A DNA stretch of 64,000 nucleotides from Candidatus Zixiibacteriota bacterium (GCA_024231855.1 JAAEQD010000159.1:1-64000), one strand, 5' to 3'. Shown: positions 1 through 16,693, counted from the stretch's first letter. Notes: a model not told the origin generated them from the sequence alone. Numbers and translations: made by a program.

Positions 1-12
1 AAAATTAGATAT

Positions 13-3000
13 ATGATGGAGTATATGACTCTCTGCGCCGATCCGACGCTATTCGAGTTAGACTCTAACACTCATCGACACCCCGCACCGAACGGGGTCC
101 CCATGGGCATTGTGACTTTGCCTGATTTTGTGGTCGATGTAGCCGTGAATGAGGTTGAGACTTCCATACCGGGCAACAGGGGCTCTATCGATCCATTAGA
201 CGTGGGTGGGCGAGCGGGTAGACTGGCATGGGTGCTCCAGGAATTCGGCGGACTGCGGAACGGCTGGTACAATATAAAATACATTGCCAAGGCGGGAGAC
301 GTTGGCCGAATCGTGCTCGAACGGCGATTCACCAAGAGAAACAACTATGCCGGTTTTGAAGCGATTTCATTACGGCACATTATCCCTTCCAATCAAGACT
401 ATGACTGGATTCACATCTACGGTAAAATGAAGAAACCTGTTGAATCGTCACATGACGGCCTCGATGTGAAGATTGAGGATATTGACAAATCCTCCTTTTC
501 CCTGACGGACCTTTTCATCGACTCGCGGTACATTGTCATCTCCAGCAAGCATGCTGATCACGCAATTAGCGCTATCTCTCTTGTGGGAGAAGGACTCGAC
601 AGGCTCTCCGGAATGCTCCCTACGCAAATTCACGGAAAGCTCCCTATTGGCATCTTACTCGATCTCAGCGCACTGGGGAACTGCGACCACATTCCTGGTG
701 TCATTGCTTCATTCGCAAAAGTAAAGGAGCGTGCATCCGCGTTTGTGATTGATTCCACGGCGTTGTGCGCGCAAGAACTTGACTCCGGTAAGGAACACTT
801 TGAGCACGTTCTGGTTCGTGAGAATGAGATTGTCCGATTGGGCGATTCTGAATACCCACTTTCGGCGAGCGGGCCGACAGTGCGTGAAGCGTTCACGGCG
901 GGCTACACTCTGGCGACTGCCTGTGACTTGGGCTGGAAACTCCTTCGCCGTTGGTATGATTACTTCCCGAAGATTCGTCCGATCGACGGAAGTCCCCACA
1001 AATCATATCCACAAGAGGAGAAAGGGGAGCCAGGGCAATTGGCGGACGATGGTGATTTGCTGCCGAGCCTGGACATTAACGGTGGTGATCCGATTAGCCC
1101 GGCAGACAGAGTGCGGTTTGCCGCGTTGTTGGCTGAGGCCACGGAATCGACTCCCTTATGCTATAGTGATTTGGTCAAGACAGTGACGCCGAAAGACACA
1201 CAGCTTCTTACGCCTATTGAGAAACTGGAGGTGAAGTATGCCACCAGTCAGCAAGATGCACCCAAAGACCAGATGAATGACTGCGAGAAAAAAGCGTCAA
1301 TGGAGCTAGTGTTAAAAAAGAGATTTCAGGATCCAGAGTCGGAAGATACTCTTTCTCTTCATGCGCCGCCATCGAAGCTCGATAGTTTCGTTTCATCTTG
1401 CCGACTGAGGGACGCTCGGCGTGTAGTCGAAAGCCCAAAATCAGAAATCGACAAGGCGGTCATGTTTGACCTTGATGCAACGCTTATTGATTCCAGCAAA
1501 ATGATACGGGCTTGTTGGAAGATAGGACTTCGCACTTTCTTCAACGAGGTTGGAATCCGGGCGGAGGACGATGAAATCAAGACCATTATCGACGTTTATC
1601 AGACGTTCATCTATAAGAACTACGAGCGTTTCCACTTGCTTCTAAGAGATCAACCCGACATTCCTCCCGAATTACAGCCGTGTGATTTCAGACAAGTGTG
1701 GAACCATCCATATGCGTGGGCGGCATTACTTTTGGTACTCAACCTGGACTCAACCTCTCCAGAAATCGATAGGTCTCAGCACAAGCAGTGGCGAGACGCC
1801 CTCGATAAGCACAAGCAGTGGCTAGACGTCCTTGATAAGTACAATCAGTGGCGTGAAGCCTTGGATAAGTACAAGAAAGAGCAGGAAACATCTGCCGGAG
1901 ACCAAGACTCGTCCTCCGAAAATCCGAATGATCCGTGGCTAGACGTCCTCGATAAGTACAATCAGTGGCGAGAAGCCTTGGATAAGTACAAGAAAGAGCA
2001 GGAAGTATCTGCCGGAGCCAAAGACTCGTCCTCCGAAAAGCCGAACGAGCAGTCGCGAGACGTCCTCGATAAGCACAATAAAGAGCAGGAAGCATCTGCC
2101 GCAGCCAAAGATACGTCCGCCGAAAAGCCGAACGAGAAGTGCGATTGCGATATTTGTAGCCAATTGGAACCAATGCTGCGTGAAAACTCCAAAGACACTA
2201 AAGATGGCGAGAAACGTAAGAATCGTAAAAAACCTGTGAATCTTGAAGATGTTCGTCGCCTCGCTACACGGAACCTTCGCGAGCAACTGACCCATTTCCG
2301 GTTTGCGATTCGCGAGGGACGGAACGCTTTTTGGAATGTGGATTATCCCTCTTACCCACAAGTGCGGTCTTGTGTCGAGATGCTCCGCGCAATGCCAGGA
2401 TGCGAAGTGTACGTCGTCACCGAAGGCCATGAAGAGACACAACTAATGAAGCTCAAGTGTACCGGTCTGGACGACCTGTTTCCTGCCGGTAGGGTACTAA
2501 GTACGGGTGCGGCAAGCGCAGCGAAGGAAGTCAGGAACGATCTTACAAAGCTAATCCAACAGGACAAGCACACGAGGGACTTCCTCCTCCGCGAGGTCAA
2601 TGAGGTCAATGTGGATGAGTTCAAACGCTTGACCGAGACGCTCAACGCGATCAAAGACGCCGTTGACCTTCTTCACCAGCTCCTTGAACTTCTGTATTTG
2701 AAGGCTAATAAGAGGTTCTATTCCGCCGTTATCGATTCTATCCGCCTCAAACCTGAGTCGCCTGCTCAAGTATTGCAGTCACTCCTTGAGAGAGGTAGGC
2801 ATGCTATTGAGTACTTTGAGAAGATCAAGGATAAGATCAGTGAAGGGCGCCCCATCAAATTCTTCATGATCGGGGATCGTTACGACAATGACTGTGAGCC
2901 GTTGCTCAAGATATTTCCTTCGGCTGATCAAGAAGTAGGCGTGGGCACATGTCGGCTCATGAGCGGAAAACGTTCGTGGGAGGAATATCCACCGGAGAAG

Positions 3001-3774
3001 AAACCCGCTGAGCCTGGTATAACTACCGAGGTTCGGAAGCCTACAATGTACGTGTGTGATACACTGGCGCAGGTCGCGCACATTATGCACAGCGCCGAAG
3101 CGTGGCGCCGAATAATCCCCTTGAAAGCTGTATCACCTCCAGCCCTCCTTGAGGTGAACGATGATGAAATAGTCTATGGCCCTACAAAGGAGGGCAAACT
3201 AAAGGGCTTAGCGCCGCAGTTTGCCAATCTCGCCTTGGCGATCCAGCATGAGGCTCTGAGGAAAGAACCGGCTGTTCATGAGATGCTTGGGCAGATCCAG
3301 CGGGATATCGCTGTGTGTGACGCAACGAGCATAGCGCGATTATTTCAAGATTTAAGGGAGCAGGTCGAAGCAGGGTGGCAACTGCCAAAGCAGAGCGATC
3401 CCGCGCTGGTTCCTGAGGAAGTCCTGGAGAAAGGTGCCCTGAAGATTCTCGCCGCTGTCAATTGGTGGAGATGGTTACTGAAGAGGCCGCTTCTACCGAG
3501 GGCCGATGATATCACAACGACACTGGAGTGGACACTAAGTTCTCAGCTTTTGGCTTACTACGACATCCAATCCGTCACTATTGGAGACAATAGAATGAGC
3601 CAAACTAGACCAGAGCAAGAGGACATCAAGGACAGTGAAATTCTAGAAGCTATTCCCTATTCCTTCGACGGCATTGAAATTATCAAAACGATCGGGGTTG
3701 CGCCGAGCCTTGGGATCGACCACCGAAAAAACCTAACGGATTGGATCGTTAAGTCAGATCGGCTAACTCGATAA
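13..3774 (+). CDS. Large multidomain protein: N-terminal PfkB/ribokinase-like region (divergent) plus HAD-superfamily phosphatase with a long repeat-bearing insertion
   Basis: ORF 1253 aa. HAD motif I VMFDLDATLIDSS and motif IV region KFFMIGDRYDNDCEPL. N-terminal DVGGRAGRLAWVLQEFGG...IKYIAKAGDVG and ...SGPTVREAFTAGYTLATACDLGW resemble PfkB motifs. The frame is open to the window edge, so the true start could lie upstream. Confidence 0.6.
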   Translation: MMEYMTLCADPTLFELDSNTHRHPAPNGVPMGIVTLPDFVVDVAVNEVETSIPGNRGSIDPLDVGGRAGRLAWVLQEFGGLRNGWYNIKYIAKAGDVGRIVLERRFTKRNNYAGFEAISLRHIIPSNQDYDWIHIYGKMKKPVESSHDGLDVKIEDIDKSSFSLTDLFIDSRYIVISSKHADHAISAISLVGEGLDRLSGMLPTQIHGKLPIGILLDLSALGNCDHIPGVIASFAKVKERASAFVIDSTALCAQELDSGKEHFEHVLVRENEIVRLGDSEYPLSASGPTVREAFTAGYTLATACDLGWKLLRRWYDYFPKIRPIDGSPHKSYPQEEKGEPGQLADDGDLLPSLDINGGDPISPADRVRFAALLAEATESTPLCYSDLVKTVTPKDTQLLTPIEKLEVKYATSQQDAPKDQMNDCEKKASMELVLKKRFQDPESEDTLSLHAPPSKLDSFVSSCRLRDARRVVESPKSEIDKAVMFDLDATLIDSSKMIRACWKIGLRTFFNEVGIRAEDDEIKTIIDVYQTFIYKNYERFHLLLRDQPDIPPELQPCDFRQVWNHPYAWAALLLVLNLDSTSPEIDRSQHKQWRDALDKHKQWLDVLDKYNQWREALDKYKKEQETSAGDQDSSSENPNDPWLDVLDKYNQWREALDKYKKEQEVSAGAKDSSSEKPNEQSRDVLDKHNKEQEASAAAKDTSAEKPNEKCDCDICSQLEPMLRENSKDTKDGEKRKNRKKPVNLEDVRRLATRNLREQLTHFRFAIREGRNAFWNVDYPSYPQVRSCVEMLRAMPGCEVYVVTEGHEETQLMKLKCTGLDDLFPAGRVLSTGAASAAKEVRNDLTKLIQQDKHTRDFLLREVNEVNVDEFKRLTETLNAIKDAVDLLHQLLELLYLKANKRFYSAVIDSIRLKPESPAQVLQSLLERGRHAIEYFEKIKDKISEGRPIKFFMIGDRYDNDCEPLLKIFPSADQEVGVGTCRLMSGKRSWEEYPPEKKPAEPGITTEVRKPTMYVCDTLAQVAHIMHSAEAWRRIIPLKAVSPPALLEVNDDEIVYGPTKEGKLKGLAPQFANLALAIQHEALRKEPAVHEMLGQIQRDIAVCDATSIARLFQDLREQVEAGWQLPKQSDPALVPEEVLEKGALKILAAVNWWRWLLKRPLLPRADDITTTLEWTLSSQLLAYYDIQSVTIGDNRMSQTRPEQEDIKDSEILEAIPYSFDGIEIIKTIGVAPSLGIDHRKNLTDWIVKSDRLTR
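1819..2130 (+). repeat. In-frame tandem repeat, ~117 bp (39 aa) unit, inside the HAD insertion
   Basis: tggctagacgtcctYgataagtacaatcagtggcgWgaagccttggataagtacaagaaagagcagga starts at 1819 and again at 1936; a partial third copy starts near 2050. Confidence 0.85.
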
Positions 3775-3822
3775 TGTGAAGTACAAGAGTGAGTAATTGT
3801 CATAAAACAGGAAAAAAGCGAC

Positions 3823-6800
3823 ATGAAAGCAGAATCATACGTGACACAAGACGAACTTGTAGACGCTCTTGATAGTGATGGCAAACCGTTGCCCCATCCC
3901 GTTTCCCGGTCGTACGCTCATCGGCACGGGATCTGGCATCGTTCAATCTCAGTCTTCGTGCTCAATCGTTACGGTGAAGCCCTGATCGAACGCAGAAGCA
4001 AAAATAAGGACTTGTTTCCCGGCTTCTATGATATCGTCGGTGGCCACGTGCATCCTGAACAGACGCCTTTAGAGACGGCTTGTCGAGAGGTTTATGAAGA
4101 ACTGAACCTTAAAGTTTCTCGCAAACGGTTCGAACTTCTTGCGCCGGTAGATAGCGTGATCGAGCGCGTCGTACTGCCCGATCAGTCGATTGTCAATCTG
4201 GAACGAAAGACGATTTATCTGCTTCGCCTGACCTTGGATGAGGAATCCGCGGTAGCACGACTTGCGGCGGAGTTGCTACGCCTGACTCCTGAAGAACTTG
4301 AGGAACGTGGCACATCGGGTGAGGTTTCGCAACTTGAGTTGTGGCCCTGGGAGCGCCTGTTCGATGCGTCGCGCCTGAGTCAAAATCATCGCATGGCCAG
4401 TGGAACCTTGTCTGCTCTGAGCGACGATCGGGTTCGGGAACAGGTTGCCGTCTGTTGCTTGTCGCTTCGCAACGACCGCCGAGAGGAATTTGTGGAACAC
4501 TACGCATTCCTCAAAGAAGGAAATGGCGATGATGACGGCTTCGACCAGAGCCTATTCGATCGGTTTCTACCGCGTCCGACATCCCCGGCGCCAATTGAAG
4601 AAGTGAACGCTGTTTTCAAGAATGGACCGGAACAGTTGGCAGGTGCTTACGAGTTGGGACGATTTAGCCAAACCGCATCGGGTGATGACCATTGGGGTCC
4701 AAAGCTCCGAGATCCGGAGACACGGTATGTACGCAGTCTTCTTACGGCTATCGGCTGCGGTAGAAAGGCAGGCGTTCGACAGGAGTTGGACCGAATTTCC
4801 ACCCAAGTCCAGTCATTCGTAAGCGACTTGCTGAATCTCCCGTTGTCAGACGGAAACCGCTTCCGGGATAAATTGGGCAACCTGGCGCATATCGCCGCCG
4901 CGCGAAGGGCAGTGCTTGTCTGGTTAGAGCACGCCGCGCCGGATTTGGCGAAGACTGAGAGTCTCGACCGACCTACTGGGTTAGTGACAGAAGCTTGTTT
5001 ACAGGCCGGTAATGACATCCTGAGACGATTTTTAAGGTCGAATCGTTTGCCGGATTTGGGCCGCTTTCGCGAGCTCGTTTTAGTGGGCCTGCGAGCGTCT
5101 TCCGCAGATTTCAATAATCCGCCGTTTCAGAAGCATTTGAAGGCACCGCCCCCAGACAGCCCACAGATCGAACGCTTCCTCGAGCAAAAAATCCCGCAAG
5201 AGTTTGCGCCGGAGATGGGAGGTGATCAATTTCTCTCGCAATTCTATTCGAAGTTCGTAGAATCCGGCGAGTCAGTCACAATCGCGTACCTTGCCGGTAA
5301 TGCGGCCCAGGCCTCTATCAGCCTCGCAATTGCTCAGGAGATCCTAAGCATCAATGGTAATGCCAAAATACGATTCGTACCCAAGTCAGACTCTCCGGGA
5401 AACGACCTGACATTTGCGGATGCGGAGAGGATACTCGCCGCAGGCGAACACGGGATTTTCTCAGAATTGATCCGTTTCCGCAACGAAGGACGTTTCGCCG
5501 TGGAGCAAGACGGGCCGCTCTGCCATGGACTGGACCCCCGGCGGCTTTCTGCGAGCATCTCGAAGGTTCTTGTCGATGCGCAAGTCATTCTGGCCGAAGG
5601 GCAAGCATATGCTGAGATCTGTGGATGGAAGAAGCCGACATACATTTCATTTCGAGTAAACGGCCGGGTCGCCGAGGCAATCCACGGCATCTCGCGGCAG
5701 CGCGGCGTGTGCGGGTTCGTTGGTTTGACACCCGGTGTCGATCATTTCCAGAACTTCGAGAGTGCGATCTGCCGAAGCATCGTGGACGCGGGCGATAAAC
5801 GCACTTTACGTGTTGCGGCCCAAACGACGGCCGAGTATGTTCGAGCGATTCGGGGAGAAAACCTGGACCTGATCGTGAACCATCTTTTTCAAGGAAACCT
5901 TGTCGAAGCCTGTGAGCACGTCCAAGCTGAAGCCGACCGGCTTGGCAAGAGCTTTGCCCAGATCCTTATTGGGGCGGCATCGGAACCCCCGGACGCCACG
6001 AACGTCGCTCAGCTCTTTCGTAACGTGCGTTTTCCGGTGTTCGCCTGCGGTGGCGGAGGCGGATTCAGCAGCGTGACACTCCGAGCTTTGCGTATGCTAG
6101 GCTTGCCCACGGTCGCGGGCGTCCCCAGTACGGATGACGGAGGTAGTACCGGTGAGCTTCAGCGTTGGCTTGCCAGTGAACGTGGCTTCGTCTTTGGGAT
6201 GGGCGACATGGCGGCAATCATGCAGGACGCTTTGCCCAACCGCGGCAAACAGGCAGTGCTTGCATACCGCTTCGACAGCGAACCCAAATCGCTGGCATTA
6301 GCTACAATTATGAGGATCGTGGCAGAAATCGCGAGTCCTACGTACCCTGATTCTCCAATCGGGTCGGCCGACGATTTCCTGTCGTTTGTCTGTGGTCAGC
6401 TCAATCTTGCCCGCGTTGTTGATGGAAGTTTTCGTGGGGCCGACAGTCTAAGTAAGCTTCCGATTAAAGGTGCGAGCATTCGTAACTTAAACATCATTGC
6501 AGCGTACGAGCTATGCGATTTGTTGGGAGACCGAGGAACAGTTTCCGAGGAATCGCGACTCGCTGCTTTCTATATGCTTCAGGAAGCATTGGGATTGCCA
6601 CCCGATTTACTTGTTGTTCCGGTGACCTATTCTGAATCTGTACTCTACCTCGAATACGAGAATCCGATTCAAAAAGAGCTGGCCGAGGAGTTCGACGTGC
6701 CAGACAAAGCGATCGGGAATAACCAGCGACGTCTATATGGCCAACAATTCATCGACAAGCTACCACAAAGCGGGTCGAGGTCGACCGTCGGCGTGGCCAA

Positions 6801-7644
6801 GTCGCCCAGCAATCTTCACCGTCCGCGTGCCAATCCGGAGTACCTGTCACGCCTGCAAGACGCAGAACTTTTCGTGATGGGCGCCGGATCACTCATCGGT
6901 AGTCAGCTTTCGCAATTAGCGATTCCAGGCGTTGTGGATGTTCTCTTGGAGCGATCAAGCATGCGGCGGATTCTTGTGCTCAATCATGTGAAGATGGACG
7001 AAACTCTTGGCATGTCTCTTCGAGATCAAATCCGACTCATCGAAACGGTTGCCTCCGAGACCGCCTCCAGACATCTGTTTGATAGGTGGGCGGAAACCGA
7101 TGGACGGCTGCGAATTTCCGATCTGTTCACGGACATCGTCGTGCCGCGGACGATAGCTCGGGAACTCGAAGCTGAAATGAAGGCTGAAAAGGTCTCAAAA
7201 GAAGTGACTGAGAATGGTGATCCAAATTATGTATTTTTTCCCACGCCAGGGACCAATCAGACGATACGTGTGTTCTGTAATAGGTACGTGAAGTTCCTCC
7301 TCGATCATCCGAACATTGGCGAGGAATACGGCATTACAAAACGTGAGATAGAGGTGCTTTCCTATCTGGATCAGCCCTCAACTCTCTATAACCGGCGCAG
7401 CGAGGGAGGACGCTATCGCGGCGCCTTATTCGCTACAACGGGCGACATCGATTTTCTCGTGGATCGGGGAATCCAACGTCGCAGCATCCACGAAGTGGAC
7501 TCTATCGGAGAGAATTGGAAGATCGTGAAGGCCGAAGGAGCCCCACGCCTTGAGTTCTTTCCGGGGCTCGTACCGGAGGCATTGGTTGGGATATTCCGCA
7601 TCGCTTTAGAGCGAGCGAGTTCGACTTCGACACCTACTCGATGA
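3823..7644 (+). CDS. Fusion protein: Nudix hydrolase + DUF89/ARMT1-like region + YvcK/CofD-like domain
   Basis: Nudix box GGHVHPEQTPLETACREVYEELNL. Middle region ...GNAAQASISLAIAQEIL...KIRFVPKSDSPGNDLTFADAERIL...DAQVILAEGQAYAEI resembles DUF89. C-terminal FACGGGGGFSSVTLRALRMLGLPTVAGVPSTDDGGSTGELQRWL and FVMGAGSLIGSQLSQLAIPGV resemble YvcK/CofD. Confidence 0.75.
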   Translation: MKAESYVTQDELVDALDSDGKPLPHPVSRSYAHRHGIWHRSISVFVLNRYGEALIERRSKNKDLFPGFYDIVGGHVHPEQTPLETACREVYEELNLKVSRKRFELLAPVDSVIERVVLPDQSIVNLERKTIYLLRLTLDEESAVARLAAELLRLTPEELEERGTSGEVSQLELWPWERLFDASRLSQNHRMASGTLSALSDDRVREQVAVCCLSLRNDRREEFVEHYAFLKEGNGDDDGFDQSLFDRFLPRPTSPAPIEEVNAVFKNGPEQLAGAYELGRFSQTASGDDHWGPKLRDPETRYVRSLLTAIGCGRKAGVRQELDRISTQVQSFVSDLLNLPLSDGNRFRDKLGNLAHIAAARRAVLVWLEHAAPDLAKTESLDRPTGLVTEACLQAGNDILRRFLRSNRLPDLGRFRELVLVGLRASSADFNNPPFQKHLKAPPPDSPQIERFLEQKIPQEFAPEMGGDQFLSQFYSKFVESGESVTIAYLAGNAAQASISLAIAQEILSINGNAKIRFVPKSDSPGNDLTFADAERILAAGEHGIFSELIRFRNEGRFAVEQDGPLCHGLDPRRLSASISKVLVDAQVILAEGQAYAEICGWKKPTYISFRVNGRVAEAIHGISRQRGVCGFVGLTPGVDHFQNFESAICRSIVDAGDKRTLRVAAQTTAEYVRAIRGENLDLIVNHLFQGNLVEACEHVQAEADRLGKSFAQILIGAASEPPDATNVAQLFRNVRFPVFACGGGGGFSSVTLRALRMLGLPTVAGVPSTDDGGSTGELQRWLASERGFVFGMGDMAAIMQDALPNRGKQAVLAYRFDSEPKSLALATIMRIVAEIASPTYPDSPIGSADDFLSFVCGQLNLARVVDGSFRGADSLSKLPIKGASIRNLNIIAAYELCDLLGDRGTVSEESRLAAFYMLQEALGLPPDLLVVPVTYSESVLYLEYENPIQKELAEEFDVPDKAIGNNQRRLYGQQFIDKLPQSGSRSTVGVAKSPSNLHRPRANPEYLSRLQDAELFVMGAGSLIGSQLSQLAIPGVVDVLLERSSMRRILVLNHVKMDETLGMSLRDQIRLIETVASETASRHLFDRWAETDGRLRISDLFTDIVVPRTIARELEAEMKAEKVSKEVTENGDPNYVFFPTPGTNQTIRVFCNRYVKFLLDHPNIGEEYGITKREIEVLSYLDQPSTLYNRRSEGGRYRGALFATTGDIDFLVDRGIQRRSIHEVDSIGENWKIVKAEGAPRLEFFPGLVPEALVGIFRIALERASSTSTPTR

Positions 7645-7670: not shown

Positions 7671-7696
7671 ATCCGAAAAACGCTCGTTTTTCGGAT
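7671..7696. repeat. Perfect 12-bp inverted repeat with 2-nt spacer (dyad copy 1)
   Basis: atccgaaaaacg-ct-cgtttttcggat. Confidence 0.9.
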
Positions 7697-7789: not shown

Positions 7790-7950
7790 TGTAACGATTT
7801 ATCACGAATTTATATATTTTATAACTATTTTTCTAGTTTTGTAACCATTTTTCTACATCAGCCGACAATAATGTGGACTGCAGTTTTATAATTATTTTTC
7901 TTGACTTATAGTGAAATATAATAATAATTCTTGCGTTGTAATCATTTTTC
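7790..7950 (+). promoter_or_regulatory. Five degenerate direct repeats TRTAAYNATTTTTC upstream of the fic start codon
   Basis: TGTAACGATTTATC at 7790, TATAACTATTTTTC at 7820, TGTAACCATTTTTC at 7840, TATAATTATTTTTC at 7887, TGTAATCATTTTTC at 7937. Confidence 0.7.
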
Positions 7951-7961
7951 CAGAGGAAGCC

Positions 7962-9482
7962 ATGGTTGATAACAATCAAAATGAATCGATAGACAGACTT
8001 GCAGGATATGCGGCACTTATCGAGCGGTACGATCTTGATGTATTCCCGCACTGGCATAGGTCACGAGTGACAACAAGCGGAGTCCACCGGATAGATTCAA
8101 GCGGAGGTGTGGTCAAGGAAGTATATCCTCCTAAGTACTGGCCAGGAGATACGCTGGGTGATCATCTTGAATTTGCGCTCAAATATGACGGTACGAACCT
8201 CGCAATACTAGCTTGTCTGTTTCAGGAAGTAGCAGAAGAGGATATTCTCGATTATATCCGATCAAAGCCAACTGGCAAGTATGCCCGGCGGCTATGGTTT
8301 CTGTACGAATTCCTGACCGGTAAAACGCTCCCCATACATGACCTAAAGAGAGGTAACTACATCGACCTGCTTGAAATGAATAAATACTATACGGTTACTC
8401 CGATCCGCAGGGTCCAACGTCAGCGGATTAACAATAATTTGCTAGGTGATCAAAGATTCTGCCCGACGATACGCCGCACCGATATCCTTCGTAAATTCGA
8501 AACGGACGACCTGCCTAATCGATGCCGCCAAGTTGTTTCAGCTTATTCCCCGGAATTGCTGAAGCGAGCACTCAGCTATCTTTACACCAAGGAGACTAAA
8601 TCATCATTTGAGATCGAAAACATTAAACCCAGTTCGACACGGACTGAACGCTTCGTGGCGCTACTTCAAATGGCTGAGCGAGAAGACTTCTGCGAGAAAA
8701 AACGATTAATCGAGCTTCAGAATCGCATAGTTGATCCACGGTTTCGCGATTCCGATTATCGCTTTAACCAGAATTATGTCGGGGAGACCATCGCCTTACA
8801 GAAAGAAAAGATACACTTAGCATGTCCAAAGCCCGAAGACCTGGCCGATTTGATGGAAGGGTTGATAGCTGCCCATAAACGTATGGATGCAAGCGACGTA
8901 TCGGCCGTGATTCACGCTACTGCCATCTCCTATGGTTTTGTTTTTTTACACCCGTTTGAGGATGGTAACGGCCGAATCCACCGCTTCCTGATTCACAACA
9001 TTTTTTCCAGAAGAGGTTTTACTCCCAAAGACGTTATGTTTCCTATATCAGCATCCATGCTGAAGAACTCGATTGATTATGATGACTCTCTGGAAGCGTT
9101 CTCCCGGCGGCTTATGCCTCTTGTGGAATACTCTCTTGATGAAGAAGGTCGCATGACGGTTCATAATGATACCGCCAAATGGTACCAGTATATTGATATG
9201 ACGCCTCAAGCGGAAGCGCTTTTCGGATTCATTGTTCATACTATCGATACCGAGCTCTCAAGTGAATTGGCATTCCTTGCTAATTATAATGAAACCAAGA
9301 AGGCTATTCAAGAGATAGCCGACATACCCGATAGGAAAATCGACCTCTTCATTCGATTCTGTTTGCAAAACAATGGGAGATTATCCATACGGAAACGCAA
9401 TAGTCATTTCGATTTTCTTTCCGATGAGGAAATTAGTCGAATGGAACAGGTGGTGTCATCTGCCTACATTGAAAAACCATAG
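7962..9482 (+). CDS. Fic/DOC family protein, class II-like with putative N-terminal inhibitory motif
   Basis: Fic motif HPFEDGNGRIHR; upstream SFEIEN fits [S/T]xxxE[G/N]. The start at 7962 (MVDNNQNE) has a gaggaag RBS; the ORF-track start at 7911 lies within the upstream repeats. Confidence 0.9.
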   Translation: MVDNNQNESIDRLAGYAALIERYDLDVFPHWHRSRVTTSGVHRIDSSGGVVKEVYPPKYWPGDTLGDHLEFALKYDGTNLAILACLFQEVAEEDILDYIRSKPTGKYARRLWFLYEFLTGKTLPIHDLKRGNYIDLLEMNKYYTVTPIRRVQRQRINNNLLGDQRFCPTIRRTDILRKFETDDLPNRCRQVVSAYSPELLKRALSYLYTKETKSSFEIENIKPSSTRTERFVALLQMAEREDFCEKKRLIELQNRIVDPRFRDSDYRFNQNYVGETIALQKEKIHLACPKPEDLADLMEGLIAAHKRMDASDVSAVIHATAISYGFVFLHPFEDGNGRIHRFLIHNIFSRRGFTPKDVMFPISASMLKNSIDYDDSLEAFSRRLMPLVEYSLDEEGRMTVHNDTAKWYQYIDMTPQAEALFGFIVHTIDTELSSELAFLANYNETKKAIQEIADIPDRKIDLFIRFCLQNNGRLSIRKRNSHFDFLSDEEISRMEQVVSSAYIEKP

Positions 9483-9886: not shown

Positions 9887-12800
9887 ATGATGAAATCTGA
9901 AGATCTCAAGAAAAATATTATTGTAACCGGTCCTATTTTTTCAGAACCAGTCCAGATTATAATGGCAACTTCGTTAGGTGATTCAATCAAACTTGTAGGA
10001 AAAGGGATTCACACCGGTCAAGTTCACGAACCTATCTTAACGAATGACCAAATTGCATTACTTAAAGCTTCCCCTGAACGGGAGCCTTTTGATGGTAATC
10101 CTATACGATTCAAACTTGGTATAGAAGCTTTAAGATTATCCCTTGCTTTCGAATATGATCCTTACTTTTCCCTCTCAATTGCCAGAGTAGATCCGCTTCC
10201 GCACCAGCTAGAAGCTGTTTATGACTATTTTATAAAACTTCCTCGTATCAGATTTCTTCTTGCTGATGATCCTGGTGCTGGGAAAACGATAATGGCTGGA
10301 CTTCTTTTGAAAGAGCTGAAAATCCGCGGATTAGCAAAACGCACTTTAATCGTTTCTCCCGCAAATCTGTGCTTTCAATGGCAACGCGAAATGAAAGATA
10401 AATTTCATGAAACATTTGATGTAATGCGAGGAGAAGTATTACGGGCCGCCTACGGAACAAATCCTTGGCAAGATCGCAATCAGGTGATTACTTCCGTATC
10501 CTGGGTATCGCGCGTTGAAGATGCCAACGAGAGTCTATTACGAAGCCATTGGGATCTTATTATTGTAGATGAAGCGCATAAAATGAGCGCCTATAGCTCT
10601 GAAAAAAAGACACTTGCCTATCGCCTGGGCGAACACCTTTCGACTATGACGGACCACTATTTGATGATGACTGCTACGCCACATAAAGGAGATCCTAAAA
10701 ATTTCTGCTTATTCCTAGAATTATTGGACAAAGATGTTTATGGTGATGTGAGAAGCCTTGAGGACGCCATGGCGCGTAATAGTGCGCCATTTTATCTCAG
10801 GCGTGTTAAAGAGGCGTTGGTTACCTTCCCCTCTCCGGATACAGGTGAAGTTAAGAAACTTTTCACAAAACGTGAGGTTAAGACAGGGGATTTTAAAATT
10901 TCGGATCAAGAATATGACTTTTATGACACATTAACTCGATATGTTGAAGACCAATCAATAAAAGCTTCTTCGGACGATTCTGCGCGTGGACGTGCTCTGG
11001 GTTTCACTATGGCCATGTTACAGCGACGGTTTGCCTCCAGCACCTATGCTGCAAGACGAAGTCTTGAACGTATGAGGGATAAACGCCAGAGAATTCTCGA
11101 TGACCCCGAAGGTTATAGGCAAGAGCAGATTGAGCGTCGCATGCCTGATGATTTTGACGAATTGACCGATGCCGATCAACAGAAAATTGTTGATCAACTC
11201 GAACAAGTTGTTATATCTATTAATCCCCCTCATCTTCGAGATGAAATTATTCAATTAGACAAACTGGTTACTTTGGCAAAAGCCCTGGAGAAAGCAGAAG
11301 TTGAAGCCAAGCTTACAAAATTAAAAGACGTAATCACCACCGAGGGCATATTTAAAGATCCTAAAATGAAACTGCTTGTATTCACCGAGCACAAGGACAC
11401 ACTTGATTATTTGGTAAAAAAACTCGAAGAATGGGATCTTACGGTTACCCAAATACACGGCGGAATGAAGATCGGTGATCGAAACCAACCGGGAACGCGG
11501 CTTTACGCAGAAAGAGCTTTTAGAGATGAAGCCCAGGTTTTAGTAGCCACTGAAGCGGCTGGTGAAGGCATAAACCTTCAATTCTGCTGGTTTATGATTA
11601 ATTATGATATTCCATGGAATCCTGTCAGGCTTGAGCAGCGTATGGGACGTATTCATCGTTATGGTCAGGAGCACGACTGTTTAATTTACAATTTTGTAGC
11701 TTTAAATACTCGAGAAGGTCGTGTTTTAAATAAGCTATTATTTAGATTGAGTGAGATTAGAGATGAACTAGGAACCGATCAGGTTTTCGATGTAGTTGGT
11801 GAGATATTTCCTGCTAATATTTTAGAGCGTATGTTCAGAGAGATGTATGCTAAACGCAGAGACGAAAAATCAATAAATGATAGAATTGTTAAGGATGTTG
11901 ATGCTAATCGTTTTAGATCGATAACGGAATCCACATTGGAGGGGCTGGCTAAGAAACAACTAAATCTCTCGGCGATAATTGGCAAATCAGTTGAAGCCAA
12001 AGAGAGGCGATTAGTTCCCGAAGTTATTGAAGAATTTTTCACTACTGCTTCTGTTGTTTCGGGTATTAAACCAAAAGAGACTCGAAAAGACTCACATATC
12101 TATCGAATTGGCCGCATTCCTCGCAACTTATGGTCTATTGGTGAAAGATTAGAACCTCGTTTTGGAAAATTAGGTCGGGAGTACAAGCAAATCGTATTTA
12201 ATAAATCGATTCTTGCTAAAGATCCAACCTGTGAGTGGGTAACACCTGGGCACCCGTTATTTGAGACTGTCCGTGAGGATGTTGCTGAACGTGTAAGAGC
12301 CGATTTACAGCGAGGAACTGTTTTTTATGATGTTAACCAATCTCAATCTTATCGACTTGATGTATTCTCTGCATCCATAAAAGATGGCCGTGGTCATCCC
12401 CTTAATCGGAGGCTTTTTGTGGTTCAAATTAATGAAGATGGATCATTAGATATCAAACAGCCGACAATTTTCATCGATTTAAATGCCACCAATATGAAAA
12501 CAGAACCGCCTGCTATTGATGGTTTGCCGGGCCGAGAATTGGCGGAAAGATTCCTTGTTGAACAAGCGTTAAATCCGTTCTTGGTTGAAGTATCAAAGGA
12601 GCGTGCCCGAGAGACTGATATGATTGCCCGCCATATTGAAATCAGTCTGAATGAATTGATTAAACGGCAAAACTTAAAGATGGCAGAGCTTTTAGAATTG
12701 CAGCAAAAAGGTGACACATCACAGCCGCTAGCTGCGAATATTAAGCAGGTTGAAGACCGCATAGATGAGCTTAATGGCAGACTTGAAAGACGTCGCAATG

Positions 12801-13297
12801 AGCTAAAAATGGAAAGCCAGTGCCTGATTGGAGATATTCAATTTATCGGTAGAGCCTGGGTATTACCGCATCCTGAACGTTCCGCCCCCGATGTATCTCC
12901 GATGGTTAAGAATGATGAAATTGAAAAGATAGCGGTTGATGCTGTAATAGCCTATGAAAAGAAACAGGGGCGTATTTGTGAGAGCGTTGAAGATCAAAAC
13001 CGGGGCTTTGATCTAATATCACGCAAGCCGCACCCGGAAGATCCAAAGACGGCTATTGAAGTTAGGTTTATCGAAGTTAAGGGGCGTTCTGAGATAGGAG
13101 AAATTGCGCTAACGCCAAATGAATACAAAACTGCTGAAAGACTAAGACGTGATTTTTGGCTATATGTAGTATTTAATTGTTCTAATAATCCAGCGGTTAA
13201 TGTTGTGAATGATCCTGTCCGGCTAGGGTGGAAACCTCTGGTAAAAGTTGAACACTATCATGTTAATTCAAGCAAAATTATCAAGGCCGCAGAATGA
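9887..13297 (+). CDS. SNF2/DEAD-like helicase with C-terminal DUF3883 (DrmD-like / Hma helicase)
   Basis: Walker A LADDPGAGKTIMAGLLLKEL, DEAH box IIVDEAHKMS, helicase C motif ATEAAGEGINLQFCWFMINYDIPWNPVRLEQRMGRIHRYGQ, DUF3883-like C-terminus NRGFDLISRKPHPED...RFIEVKGRS. Confidence 0.9.
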   Translation: MMKSEDLKKNIIVTGPIFSEPVQIIMATSLGDSIKLVGKGIHTGQVHEPILTNDQIALLKASPEREPFDGNPIRFKLGIEALRLSLAFEYDPYFSLSIARVDPLPHQLEAVYDYFIKLPRIRFLLADDPGAGKTIMAGLLLKELKIRGLAKRTLIVSPANLCFQWQREMKDKFHETFDVMRGEVLRAAYGTNPWQDRNQVITSVSWVSRVEDANESLLRSHWDLIIVDEAHKMSAYSSEKKTLAYRLGEHLSTMTDHYLMMTATPHKGDPKNFCLFLELLDKDVYGDVRSLEDAMARNSAPFYLRRVKEALVTFPSPDTGEVKKLFTKREVKTGDFKISDQEYDFYDTLTRYVEDQSIKASSDDSARGRALGFTMAMLQRRFASSTYAARRSLERMRDKRQRILDDPEGYRQEQIERRMPDDFDELTDADQQKIVDQLEQVVISINPPHLRDEIIQLDKLVTLAKALEKAEVEAKLTKLKDVITTEGIFKDPKMKLLVFTEHKDTLDYLVKKLEEWDLTVTQIHGGMKIGDRNQPGTRLYAERAFRDEAQVLVATEAAGEGINLQFCWFMINYDIPWNPVRLEQRMGRIHRYGQEHDCLIYNFVALNTREGRVLNKLLFRLSEIRDELGTDQVFDVVGEIFPANILERMFREMYAKRRDEKSINDRIVKDVDANRFRSITESTLEGLAKKQLNLSAIIGKSVEAKERRLVPEVIEEFFTTASVVSGIKPKETRKDSHIYRIGRIPRNLWSIGERLEPRFGKLGREYKQIVFNKSILAKDPTCEWVTPGHPLFETVREDVAERVRADLQRGTVFYDVNQSQSYRLDVFSASIKDGRGHPLNRRLFVVQINEDGSLDIKQPTIFIDLNATNMKTEPPAIDGLPGRELAERFLVEQALNPFLVEVSKERARETDMIARHIEISLNELIKRQNLKMAELLELQQKGDTSQPLAANIKQVEDRIDELNGRLERRRNELKMESQCLIGDIQFIGRAWVLPHPERSAPDVSPMVKNDEIEKIAVDAVIAYEKKQGRICESVEDQNRGFDLISRKPHPEDPKTAIEVRFIEVKGRSEIGEIALTPNEYKTAERLRRDFWLYVVFNCSNNPAVNVVNDPVRLGWKPLVKVEHYHVNSSKIIKAAE

Positions 13298-13626
13298 GCA
13301 AATGGTCTGATTGGAAGCGCTTTCCCGATCCCAGGAAGGGCGATTATATTTGTGTTCCATATGGACCTGGAGTATATGAACTACGGCATATTGGCAATGG
13401 CCAAAGAATACTTTTTGGAGAAGGAAGTTGTGTTGCATATAGAATGTCTTCTTTGTTGTCGAAACCATTAGGCTGTGGCACTAGAAATAATTATAAAAAG
13501 AGAGAATACGTTCTAAAAAATATCAATGACGTCGAATTTCGCACCTGTGCGTGCAAGAATAGAAATTCAGCAAAAGAGTTGCAACGTGAAATTAAAACAA
13601 AATGGAAATATGTTTTTAGGACTTAG
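13294..13626 (+). CDS. Small GIY-YIG-like protein (putative nuclease)
   Basis: 110 aa; PGVYEL...RILFGEGSCVAYRMSSLL...GTRNNYKKREYV...EFRTCACKNRNSAKELQREI pattern. Start overlaps the helicase stop by 4 nt (ATGA). Confidence 0.55.
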   Translation: MSKWSDWKRFPDPRKGDYICVPYGPGVYELRHIGNGQRILFGEGSCVAYRMSSLLSKPLGCGTRNNYKKREYVLKNINDVEFRTCACKNRNSAKELQREIKTKWKYVFRT

Positions 13627-13632
13627 TTTAAT

Positions 13633-16600
13633 ATGAAAACCCATAGATATTGCAAACGCCTAATAGAAGTTGATTTACCCATTAAACGTATTTCGGAACA
13701 TGCTCGACGAGAGAAATCCATAAGGCATGGGCATATATCCACGCTTCATCTTTGGTGGGCAAGGCGACCTCTTGCCGCTTGTCGTGCTGTTATTTGTGCT
13801 TCTTTATGGCCTGACCCTGCCGATGATTTATGTCCTATAGTATTTAGGAAAGCCGCAAAGAATGAGATGATGGTTTGGGGAAGAGATAGTTTAAAGTTAA
13901 TGAGCGACGAAAGTTATAAATTCTTTAGATCCAAATTAGACAATCCATGTTGTTTCGATGATCCTATCAACCTAAGAAAAGCTTTGTTGCATTTTATAGC
14001 AGATTATTCAAATTGGGATCATACAAACAACTCTAAATTCAATTCAACATCCAACCGTTTGACGAAAGCAGCTTATCAAACTGAAGGCACTATTAAGTAT
14101 TCCCGTCCACTAGTAGTAGATCCGTTTGCGGGTGGTGGGGCGATCCCTCTTGAAAGCTTGCGTGTTGGAGCTGATGCTTATGCATCTGACTTAAACCCTG
14201 TAGCCGTTTTGATAAATAAGGTTTTACTCGAGTACATACCACAATATGGGACCAAACTTTCAACGGCCGTAAAAGAATGGGGATTATGGATTAACAAACA
14301 AGCATCAAAAAGATTATCAGTATATTACCCCCCGACAGGTAAAGATTTAACACCACTTGCATATATATGGGCTAGAACAATAATATCAGAATCACCAAGC
14401 GAAAAAAATATTCCAATTGAAATACCGCTCATTTCATCGATGTGGTTATCAAAAAAACCTCATCGAAAACGTGCGCTACGTTGGGTCCTGAATAAAGGCG
14501 GAAGAGTTGCAACGAAAATACTTTATAAAAAATATGCAAATGGCATTAATATGCAAATTCAACAACCTCTTCTTGAAGTATTTGAGCCCAAAAATATATC
14601 GGATGTGCCAAATGGCAACGTCGCACGCGGATCTGCTACATGTCCGGTTACAGGATATACAGTTCCAGTTAAGAATGTGAGAATTCAATTGGAAAAAAGA
14701 AAGGGTGGGGCATCAGACGCTAGAATGATTTGCACGGTAAGTGTTTCCAAAATCAGAAAAGGTAGAACATATTGTATTCCAACCAATGACGATCTGGAAA
14801 CGTCAGAAATGGCTAATGTTCATTTCAATAACATTGGAGTGAAAAGTGAAGAGAATTCCAATTTTCCAAATGAACCTACACCACCTAGAAATAGTCATAG
14901 AGCAGTAAGCAGCTTTCCAATTTATGGAATGAATAAGTTCATTGATCTTTTTACGCCTCGCCAGGCTCTAGTTCTTAAAACGTTTACCGAATTAATTAAG
15001 GAAGCCGGAAATAATATTGAAGCTCAATCTAATAAAGAATTTGCTTTTGCGACACAGAGTTGTCTCGCGCTCTTGATTGGAAAGATAGCCGACTATTGTT
15101 CTAGTCTGACCCCTTGGGCGTCTCCAGCTACACAAGAAACGGTTAGAAATACTTTCGGCCGTCAGGCATTAGCAATGGTGTGGGATTTCGCCGAAGCAAA
15201 TATTTTTGCAAAAAGTTCTGGGGGATGGTGCCATGCACTTGAATATATTTCACGTGCAATAGAGCACACAGCGAAAGGTATTAATTCTCAAGGTACGGCA
15301 AATATAGAAGATGCGTGTCAATTAAGTTTACCAGATAACATTGCAGCTGCCTTAATAACAGATCCTCCTTATTACGATTCGATTCCGTATGCGGAATTAT
15401 CGGATTATTTTTATGTTTGGCTGAAACGTGCAATACCGGACTGTCATGCGTCTTTGTTCAAGGATGTACTCACCCCCAAGAAAGAGCAAATTATTGTCTG
15501 GCACCCAAATGCAGTTGATGAAAAAGACAGGTTTCAAGACTTAATGAAAAGAGCATTGTCAAATGGCCGCAGGATTTTGAATAATAATGGTATAGGCATT
15601 GTTGTTTTTGCCCATAAATCTACATCAGGTTGGGAAAGTCAATTAAGGGCCTTGATTGAATCAGATTGGATTATTACCGCATCATGGCCAATAGATACTG
15701 AGAGATCTGGCCGTATCAATGCAAAAAACACGGCTTCGCTGGCATCATCTGTCCATTTAATTTGCCGACCCCGCGAGAATACTCGCGGCACCAAACTTGC
15801 AGCTGACATAGGTGATTGGCGTGATCTACTAACAGAACTTCCTGAGAGAATTCATGAATGGATGCCTCGCCTTGCGGGGGAAGGGGTAGTAGGCGCTGAT
15901 GCTATCTTTGCTTGCCTAGGTCCGGCATTGGAAATCTATTCCCGTTATTCTTCGGTGGAGAGAGCCAGCGGGGAAGAAGTGAGCTTGAGCGAATATCTTG
16001 AAGAAGTCTGGGCGACTGTTTCGCGTGAAGCCTTGAACATGATATTTGAAGGTGCTGATTCCTCCGGTTTTGAAGAGGATGCCCGACTAACTGCCATGTG
16101 GCTTTGGACAATCTCAACAGGAGTAAACGGACAAACCAATGAAGAGGATAAACCTATAAGTAGTTTAGGATATACACTAGAATTTGATGCTGCACGAAAA
16201 ATCGCTCAGGGTTTAGGCGTACACCTAGAAAGATTGATGAATCTCGTCGAAATCCAAGGAGATAAAGCAAGGTTAATACCTGTATCTGAAAGATCAAAAT
16301 ACCTATTCGGAAAAGAAGGAACGGAATCGTCGCAACGAAAACGCAAAAAGAAAGACCCTCAGATAGGTTTGGGATTCCTGGCGGAACTAGAGGAATCTGA
16401 AGAGCAGGCCAAGATTAAAGGATCATTCTCGGTCAACCTGGGTAAGACGGTGCTTGACCAACTTCATCAATGTATGCTTTTATTTGCTGCTGGTAGAAGT
16501 GAGGCATTGAAGCGGCTGATTGTCGAAGAGGGCGTCGGTAGAGATCAAAGATTTTGGAAATTAGCACAATCATTATCAGCACTTTACCCAAAAAATGTAG

Positions 16601-16656
16601 ATGAAAAGCGTTGGGTGGATGGCGTATTAGCAAAAAAGAAGAGTTTTGGATTTTAG
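13633..16656 (+). CDS. DUF1156 domain-containing DNA (adenine-specific) methyltransferase
   Basis: N-terminal RLIEVDLPIKRISEHARREKSIRHGHISTLHLWWARRPLAACRAV; SAM motif VDPFAGGGAIPLESLRVGADAYASDLNPVAV; catalytic TDPPYYDSIPYAELSDYFYVWLKR. Confidence 0.9.
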   Translation: MKTHRYCKRLIEVDLPIKRISEHARREKSIRHGHISTLHLWWARRPLAACRAVICASLWPDPADDLCPIVFRKAAKNEMMVWGRDSLKLMSDESYKFFRSKLDNPCCFDDPINLRKALLHFIADYSNWDHTNNSKFNSTSNRLTKAAYQTEGTIKYSRPLVVDPFAGGGAIPLESLRVGADAYASDLNPVAVLINKVLLEYIPQYGTKLSTAVKEWGLWINKQASKRLSVYYPPTGKDLTPLAYIWARTIISESPSEKNIPIEIPLISSMWLSKKPHRKRALRWVLNKGGRVATKILYKKYANGINMQIQQPLLEVFEPKNISDVPNGNVARGSATCPVTGYTVPVKNVRIQLEKRKGGASDARMICTVSVSKIRKGRTYCIPTNDDLETSEMANVHFNNIGVKSEENSNFPNEPTPPRNSHRAVSSFPIYGMNKFIDLFTPRQALVLKTFTELIKEAGNNIEAQSNKEFAFATQSCLALLIGKIADYCSSLTPWASPATQETVRNTFGRQALAMVWDFAEANIFAKSSGGWCHALEYISRAIEHTAKGINSQGTANIEDACQLSLPDNIAAALITDPPYYDSIPYAELSDYFYVWLKRAIPDCHASLFKDVLTPKKEQIIVWHPNAVDEKDRFQDLMKRALSNGRRILNNNGIGIVVFAHKSTSGWESQLRALIESDWIITASWPIDTERSGRINAKNTASLASSVHLICRPRENTRGTKLAADIGDWRDLLTELPERIHEWMPRLAGEGVVGADAIFACLGPALEIYSRYSSVERASGEEVSLSEYLEEVWATVSREALNMIFEGADSSGFEEDARLTAMWLWTISTGVNGQTNEEDKPISSLGYTLEFDAARKIAQGLGVHLERLMNLVEIQGDKARLIPVSERSKYLFGKEGTESSQRKRKKKDPQIGLGFLAELEESEEQAKIKGSFSVNLGKTVLDQLHQCMLLFAAGRSEALKRLIVEEGVGRDQRFWKLAQSLSALYPKNVDEKRWVDGVLAKKKSFGF

Positions 16657-16693
16657 CGTTTATTTATGATAGTATGATTTGGGGAGAAAACAT

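Follow-up and report, generated by a model that had tools for sequence, protein, structure and literature searches.

Large adjacent genes in a Candidatus Zixiibacteriota bacterium that share enzyme modules with giant open reading frames of Omnitrophota

Two large genes lie side by side at the start of a 64,000-nucleotide stretch of DNA from a Candidatus Zixiibacteriota bacterium (GCA_024231855.1, JAAEQD010000159.1:1-64000; the whole stretch is hereafter the window), and they raise the question of what kind of system would combine so many small-molecule enzyme domains in two polypeptides. A sequence-only reading had seen in them five domain types that act on phosphorylated small molecules (PfkB-like kinase, HAD phosphatase, Nudix hydrolase, DUF89/ARMT1-like phosphatase and YvcK/CofD-like domain). 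Four of these, HAD, Nudix, DUF89 and CofD, were found again by our analysis, and the kinase was not. On balance we favor the explanation that the locus is a compact island operon, handling a nucleotide-like phospho-metabolite, whose modules come from the multi-enzyme domain set of the giant open reading frames (ORFs) of Omnitrophota. The best-supported part of this explanation is its account of kind and origin, namely an island operon in a host of another phylum with modules in common with Omnitrophota giants. The pair probably makes up the last two genes of a three-gene operon in the order adenylyltransferase, ORF1, ORF2. ORF calling confirmed the two adjacent frames, which are separated by 48 bp on a common strand:

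13-3774, plus strand: ORF1, 1253 amino acids as called (frame 1..3774, open at its 5' end), a HAD protein whose N-terminal region has no assigned fold
3823-7644, plus strand: ORF2, 1273 amino acids, a fusion of Nudix, DUF89 and CofD/YvcK domains

ORF2 carries three domains, all of which exceed the Pfam gathering scores:

3937-4170, plus strand: Nudix domain, YfcD / IPP-isomerase-like (residues 39-116; Pfam NUDIX, E value 7.9e-10)
4420-5817, plus strand: DUF89/ARMT1-like domain (Pfam ARMT1-like/DUF89 at residues 449-595, E value 2.9e-6)
6025-7197, plus strand: CofD/YvcK-like domain (Pfam CofD at residues 740-1109, E value 1.5e-15), with DDGGST (6133-6153) and GAGSLIGS (6880-6903) kept

The Nudix assignment stood at the level of the profile match, with a box that is only partly canonical: the REVYEE helix is kept, while relative to GX5EX7REUXEEXGU the first Glu is Gln and a late Gly is Asn. 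The CofD assignment stood as well, since the domain has both the profile match and the phosphate/nucleotide-binding motifs of PF01933, and it shares GGGGGF, DDGGST and GxGSL with the YvcK/CofD family. It differs from that family in being fused after DUF89 and in having long inserts, and at 52.6 bits it lies far under the cut-off of 196 for the YvcK model (TIGR01826), so that it was not classed as a YvcK. The CofD of the GAK system (TIGR04357) was also considered and rejected, scoring 13.7 bits where the cut-off is 340. For DUF89, the domain was recovered by Pfam and by homology, but one of its essential residues was not. Phosphatases of this family need two aspartates, D623 and D659 in PANK4 (PMC9352595); in ORF2 the first is replaced by Gly492 and the second is kept as Asp528, 36 positions on as in PANK4. 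Because an aspartate essential in its family is Gly, the DUF89 domain of ORF2 is probably no working phosphatase. PANK4, a pseudo-kinase joined to DUF89 (PMC9352595), is similarly a multi-domain metabolic protein with one inactive part; in PANK4, however, the DUF89 is active and the kinase dead, whereas in ORF2 it is the DUF89 that has lost its Asp, and its partners are Nudix and CofD.

No function has been established for the giant ORFs of Omnitrophota, whose length runs to tens of thousands of residues. The one detailed account (Seymour et al. 2023, PMC10066038) likens them to adhesins or coats, with few domains annotated and mostly poor conservation. We searched 384 Omnitrophota genomes, with 390 genomes drawn from other groups of bacteria as a control; the Omnitrophota open frames were taken from stop to stop, which is not proof of one protein. 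ORF2 had matches in 111 of the 384 genomes. The best was to a DUF89 segment (34% identity over 273 residues, E value 5.9e-37) in a 9108-amino-acid open frame of G444, in which a related Nudix domain is encoded as well. Other DUF89 matches, with E values between 1e-19 and 1e-9, lie in frames as long as 37,731 amino acids. In the control, ORF2 without its Nudix domain gave only YvcK matches of 50-115 residues, with a best E value of 4e-6, and none in DUF89. The adenylyltransferase was found in eight strong copies from five Omnitrophota genomes (E values of 1e-53 to 1e-82), all in frames of 850-9619 amino acids, followed by a gap (4e-53 to 7e-6) before housekeeping NadD proteins appeared. A GTDB scan with the same protein returned two loci, one from a Candidatus Omnitrophota bin, with 43% and 38% identity and embedded in ORFs of 849-5280 amino acids. 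Three modules, adenylyltransferase, DUF89 and CofD, are thus clearly related to parts of Omnitrophota giants, and the first two are closer to their giant-ORF counterparts than to stand-alone proteins of other phyla.

Profile mapping showed that the modules also recur in combination. DUF89 followed by CofD within one polypeptide was seen in three genomes (G526, G412 and G290), adenylyltransferase together with Nudix in two (G333 and G196), and DUF89 with Nudix in G444. Further domains in these giants included guanylate kinase, NDK, Maf, ROK, APH, glycosyltransferases and PP2C. The Omnitrophota ORFs differ from the present genes in size (thousands to tens of thousands of amino acids against about 1250 for ORF1 and ORF2), in phylum, and in that the adenylyltransferase is a separate gene here. 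The first DUF89 aspartate is retained in seven of nine Omnitrophota relatives and lost in G412 and G526, both of which, like ORF2, have the CofD fusion; the fourth fusion, in G290, retains it. The catalytic Asp is therefore lost in three of four DUF89-CofD fusions and in none of six DUF89 modules without a visible CofD, a difference for which a one-sided Fisher test by hand gave about 0.03 on a tiny sample in which contig ends could hide a CofD in the six. Whole ORF1 or ORF2, which the sequence-only reading had suggested seeking as a fused pair across genomes, was found nowhere else: GTDB (searched with peptide patterns), viral contigs, phages and plasmids held no full-length relative of either, beyond ordinary Nudix and YvcK matches, and the relatives that exist are of single modules. 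Viral contigs, phages and plasmids also held no relative of the adenylyltransferase. A further viral-contig search returned nothing, with motifs picked from alignments that contained artificial rows, and is not used as evidence. The claim that the fusion architecture matches no named pathway agrees with our searches, as the combination was absent from the family databases and the literature examined, and no publication combining DUF89 with CofD was found in a search that did not extend to the giant-gene preprint of West-Roberts et al. 2023 (cited in PMC12057145).

Several other features of Omnitrophota ORFs were seen during these searches. Three consecutive ORFs of 3070+, 1424 and 849 amino acids (L023 2-16880) each have a copy of the adenylyltransferase domain, and two of the three also carry segments that look guanylate-kinase-like by eye. 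In another ORF (L025 2-2752) a CofD-like domain is fused to a stretch that looks like a low-molecular-weight phosphatase (CVCNSNYNRSPAMQ). Two stop-free frames with Nudix matches (G304:C2 and G439:C2), of 70,450 and 57,756 amino acids, exceed the 39,678-amino-acid example in PMC10066038.

The adenylyltransferase gene itself lies on a second contig of the same bin. Base 1 of the window is also base 1 of contig C159 (81,642 bp), and the end of contig C34 is homologous to window positions 1-413 with 88% identity, the first 122 bp being identical and the remainder diverging. Since an identical stretch of about one k-mer typifies a branch in a de Bruijn assembly graph, C34 probably runs into C159 or its sister allele. 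The ORF1 homologue on C34 starts at an ATG 13 codons further upstream, and since the window begins at a contig edge, the true start of ORF1 is probably about 13 codons beyond it. A gene for a 356-amino-acid protein ends 74 bp before this homologue. The protein keeps the GTMNPxHxGH and SATK motifs (the HxGH and SxTxxR/K signatures), and an AlphaFold model of its relatives, rather than of the C34 protein itself, matched NMNAT/NadD structures almost exclusively (top probability 1.00, E value 3e-3). We take it to be a stand-alone enzyme that is nicotinamide mononucleotide/nicotinic acid mononucleotide (NMN/NaMN)-adenylyltransferase-like, as judged from motifs and predicted fold. Compared with the NadD/NMNAT family (PF01467), with which it shares GTMNPxHxGH, SATK/R and the fold match of the relatives' model, it has an extra N-terminal helical region of about 100 residues and falls in a clade apart from housekeeping NadD. 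Farther upstream on C34 (L018 12154-13142) are a tRNA-Gln and then a tyrosine integrase frameshifted between its N-terminal and catalytic parts, and about 2.1 kb without an ORF of at least 80 amino acids separates the broken integrase from the adenylyltransferase gene. The locus is a genomic island beside tRNA-Gln; a repeat of the tRNA-Gln 3' region, which would mark the right border, was not found downstream in C159.

The upstream gene strengthens the proposal of a phospho-metabolite system, with which the assigned domains agree. A second explanation is the salvage or repair of a cofactor resembling nicotinamide adenine dinucleotide (NAD) or coenzyme A, in which the adenylyltransferase would make the cofactor while Nudix, HAD and DUF89 would remove damaged or excess forms. 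Every assigned family acts on phosphorylated or nucleotide-linked small molecules, the upstream enzyme resembles NMNAT/NadD and has weak sequence similarity to phosphopantetheine adenylyltransferase, and the DUF89 of PANK4 dephosphorylates 4'-phosphopantetheine (PMC9352595). However, the Asp needed for DUF89 phosphatase activity is missing from ORF2, and an island location together with absence from all sampled relatives is unlike a housekeeping function, and we consider salvage or repair unlikely.

ORF1 contains the fourth recovered domain, in two parts, and the region for which the kinase had been proposed:

1459-1599, plus strand: first HAD half with motif I (ORF1 residues 487-533; DLDATL at 1465-1491; Pfam HAD_2, E value 5.6e-5)
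2338-2892, plus strand: second HAD half by motif reading, with motif II VVTEGH (2413-2436) and motif IV GDRYDND (2872-2892)
1758-2138, plus strand: tandem repeat in the HAD insert, a minisatellite that keeps the reading frame and has units of 30 bp and 117 bp, QWRDALDKYK-type
103-990, plus strand: N-terminal region earlier labelled PfkB-like, a label without support (lookalikes DVGGRAG at 199-219 and SGPTVREAF at 868-894)

The HAD phosphatase domain was upheld by two Pfam matches, the second being to Hydrolase (E value 6.5e-7, at 2338-2496, residues 780-832), and both halves are at or above the gathering scores. The DxDxT, hhhT/S and GDxxxxD motifs of HAD hydrolases are all present in the correct order, and the insert of about 250 residues that parts the halves bears the repeats. 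The PfkB/ribokinase-like kinase found no support, and we do not accept an active kinase here. By eye, DVGGRAGRLAWVLQEFGG and SGPTVREAFTAGY resemble motifs of PfkB, although no GAGD signature is present. ORF1 gave no match to the PfkB profile (PF00294) in Pfam or, with all filters off, to a hidden Markov model built from 24 PfkB proteins of relatives, while HHalign of PfkB against ORF1 returned a probability of 0.2%. A profile search found three PfkB genes elsewhere in the same genome and none in this pair. The structure prediction that had been suggested as a check was run on ORF1 residues 1-480 from an alignment of two rows, one of them the C34 allele from the same genome; with these two sequences only, the AlphaFold model had a predicted local distance difference test (pLDDT) score of 35, too low to be informative on the fold, and Foldseek found no significant match.

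The two ORF1 alleles, in the window and at the end of C34, have 137 codons in common, with nonsynonymous (dN) and synonymous (dS) divergence of 0.072 and 0.224 (dN/dS 0.32) overall and of 0.030 and 0.179 (dN/dS 0.17) outside one variable loop. This low dN relative to dS points to mostly purifying change and indicates that the frame has been under selection in at least one lineage. These data bear on a third explanation, that the locus is a decaying island remnant in which large ORFs survive by chance and several domains are already inactive. The lost DUF89 Asp, the Glu to Gln change in the Nudix box, the lack of PfkB signal and the frameshifted integrase fit such decay, but two frames of about 1250 amino acids are intact, the alleles differ mainly at synonymous sites outside the loop, and the HAD, CofD and adenylyltransferase motifs are preserved, so decay appears very improbable. 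The loop itself (window 148-189 against L018 16587-16628) is hypervariable between the alleles, with flanks that change mostly synonymously, and is possibly a diversifying site.

Downstream of ORF2 the following features were identified:

7672-7695, plus strand: near-perfect 24-nucleotide hairpin, 28 bp after the ORF2 stop
7911-9482, plus strand: Fic-domain protein (Pfam; PADLOC PDC-S24), outside the operon
9887-13297, plus strand: HmaA helicase (E value 9.1e-195)
13633-16656, plus strand: HmaB methylase, DUF1156
16679-19630, plus strand: HmaC ATPase, DUF499

The hairpin is the probable end of the operon. The pair does adjoin a defence-type island, as had been noted, with the Fic gene preceding a complete HmaABC set at 9887-19630. 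The pair was also said to be more GC-rich (richer in guanine plus cytosine) than this island; this is true relative to the neighbouring Hma genes (51% for ORF1 and 54% for ORF2 against 40-41%), but it is not unusual for the genome, in which other genes have, for example, 52-53%. A fourth explanation, a system for conflict with phages or between elements that would make or destroy a nucleotide signal, draws on position: the operon adjoins Fic and HmaABC and lies downstream of an integrase and a tRNA. On the other hand, PADLOC gave no specific defence model for the pair and only a generic Nudix-type match (PDC-S07), no domain of the effector, CARF/SAVED, nuclease or toxin kind turned up, the GC content of the pair is unlike that of the defence genes, from which the hairpin divides it, and the Omnitrophota giants examined in detail, though not by a systematic test, had no obvious defence link. 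Of the conflict or defence idea, then, only the position beside Fic and HmaABC speaks in its favor, and we regard it as improbable. Elsewhere in the window (26796-49326) are large peptidases of secreted type. Among them are subtilases that bear CarboxypepD_reg or HYR repeats, and an M28 peptidase that also has CarboxypepD_reg.

A further comparison is with the polyvalent proteins of phages and conjugative elements (PMC5512222), which likewise combine numerous enzyme domains, unrelated to one another, within single polypeptides encoded by mobile DNA. A text search of PMC5512222 gave no CofD, PfkB or adenylyltransferase and a single mention of Nudix, and no conjugation or virion gene was seen at this locus.

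Returning to an island operon with Omnitrophota-type modules, the following points count against it. No relative of ORF1 was detectable anywhere, including the 384 Omnitrophota genomes, so that half of the pair, to the extent that sequence comparison can show, is not part of the shared set. Nudix, HAD and CofD are promiscuous families, and Nudix matches of similar strength occur outside Omnitrophota. The join of C34 to C159 is based on a 413-bp homologous overlap and not on one assembled molecule, and the source bin (5.37 Mb, 415 contigs, completeness 96.5%) has 8.5% contamination. The model behind the NMNAT call has a mean pLDDT of only 64.

The modules may have reached this host by gene transfer, and what the operon would do enzymatically, on what substrate and for what purpose, we infer from what these families do elsewhere. 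The adenylyltransferase would join a nucleotide to a phosphorylated small molecule, giving a dinucleotide-like product, which Nudix and HAD would cleave back, while the CofD/YvcK domain and the catalytically dead DUF89 would bind the metabolite and set its level or activity. It is tempting to speculate further that this is a transferable operon, derived from the Omnitrophota giants, for both the synthesis and the breakdown of a new NAD-like dinucleotide, which CofD coupled to a dead DUF89 sensor would read, a possibility that we put forward tentatively and with considerable doubt.

The related enzyme modules are found here in normal-sized genes amenable to cloning and assay, and this compact set could be a practical route to the function of the Omnitrophota giants. 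Testable hypotheses on part of them come from the recurrent pairing of CofD with a DUF89 whose phosphatase is dead, and from the adenylyltransferase clade, which among the genomes sampled is otherwise confined to giants. If the reading as an operon for a NAD-like dinucleotide is true, the giants would be, at least in part, metabolic multi-enzyme machines and not only adhesins.

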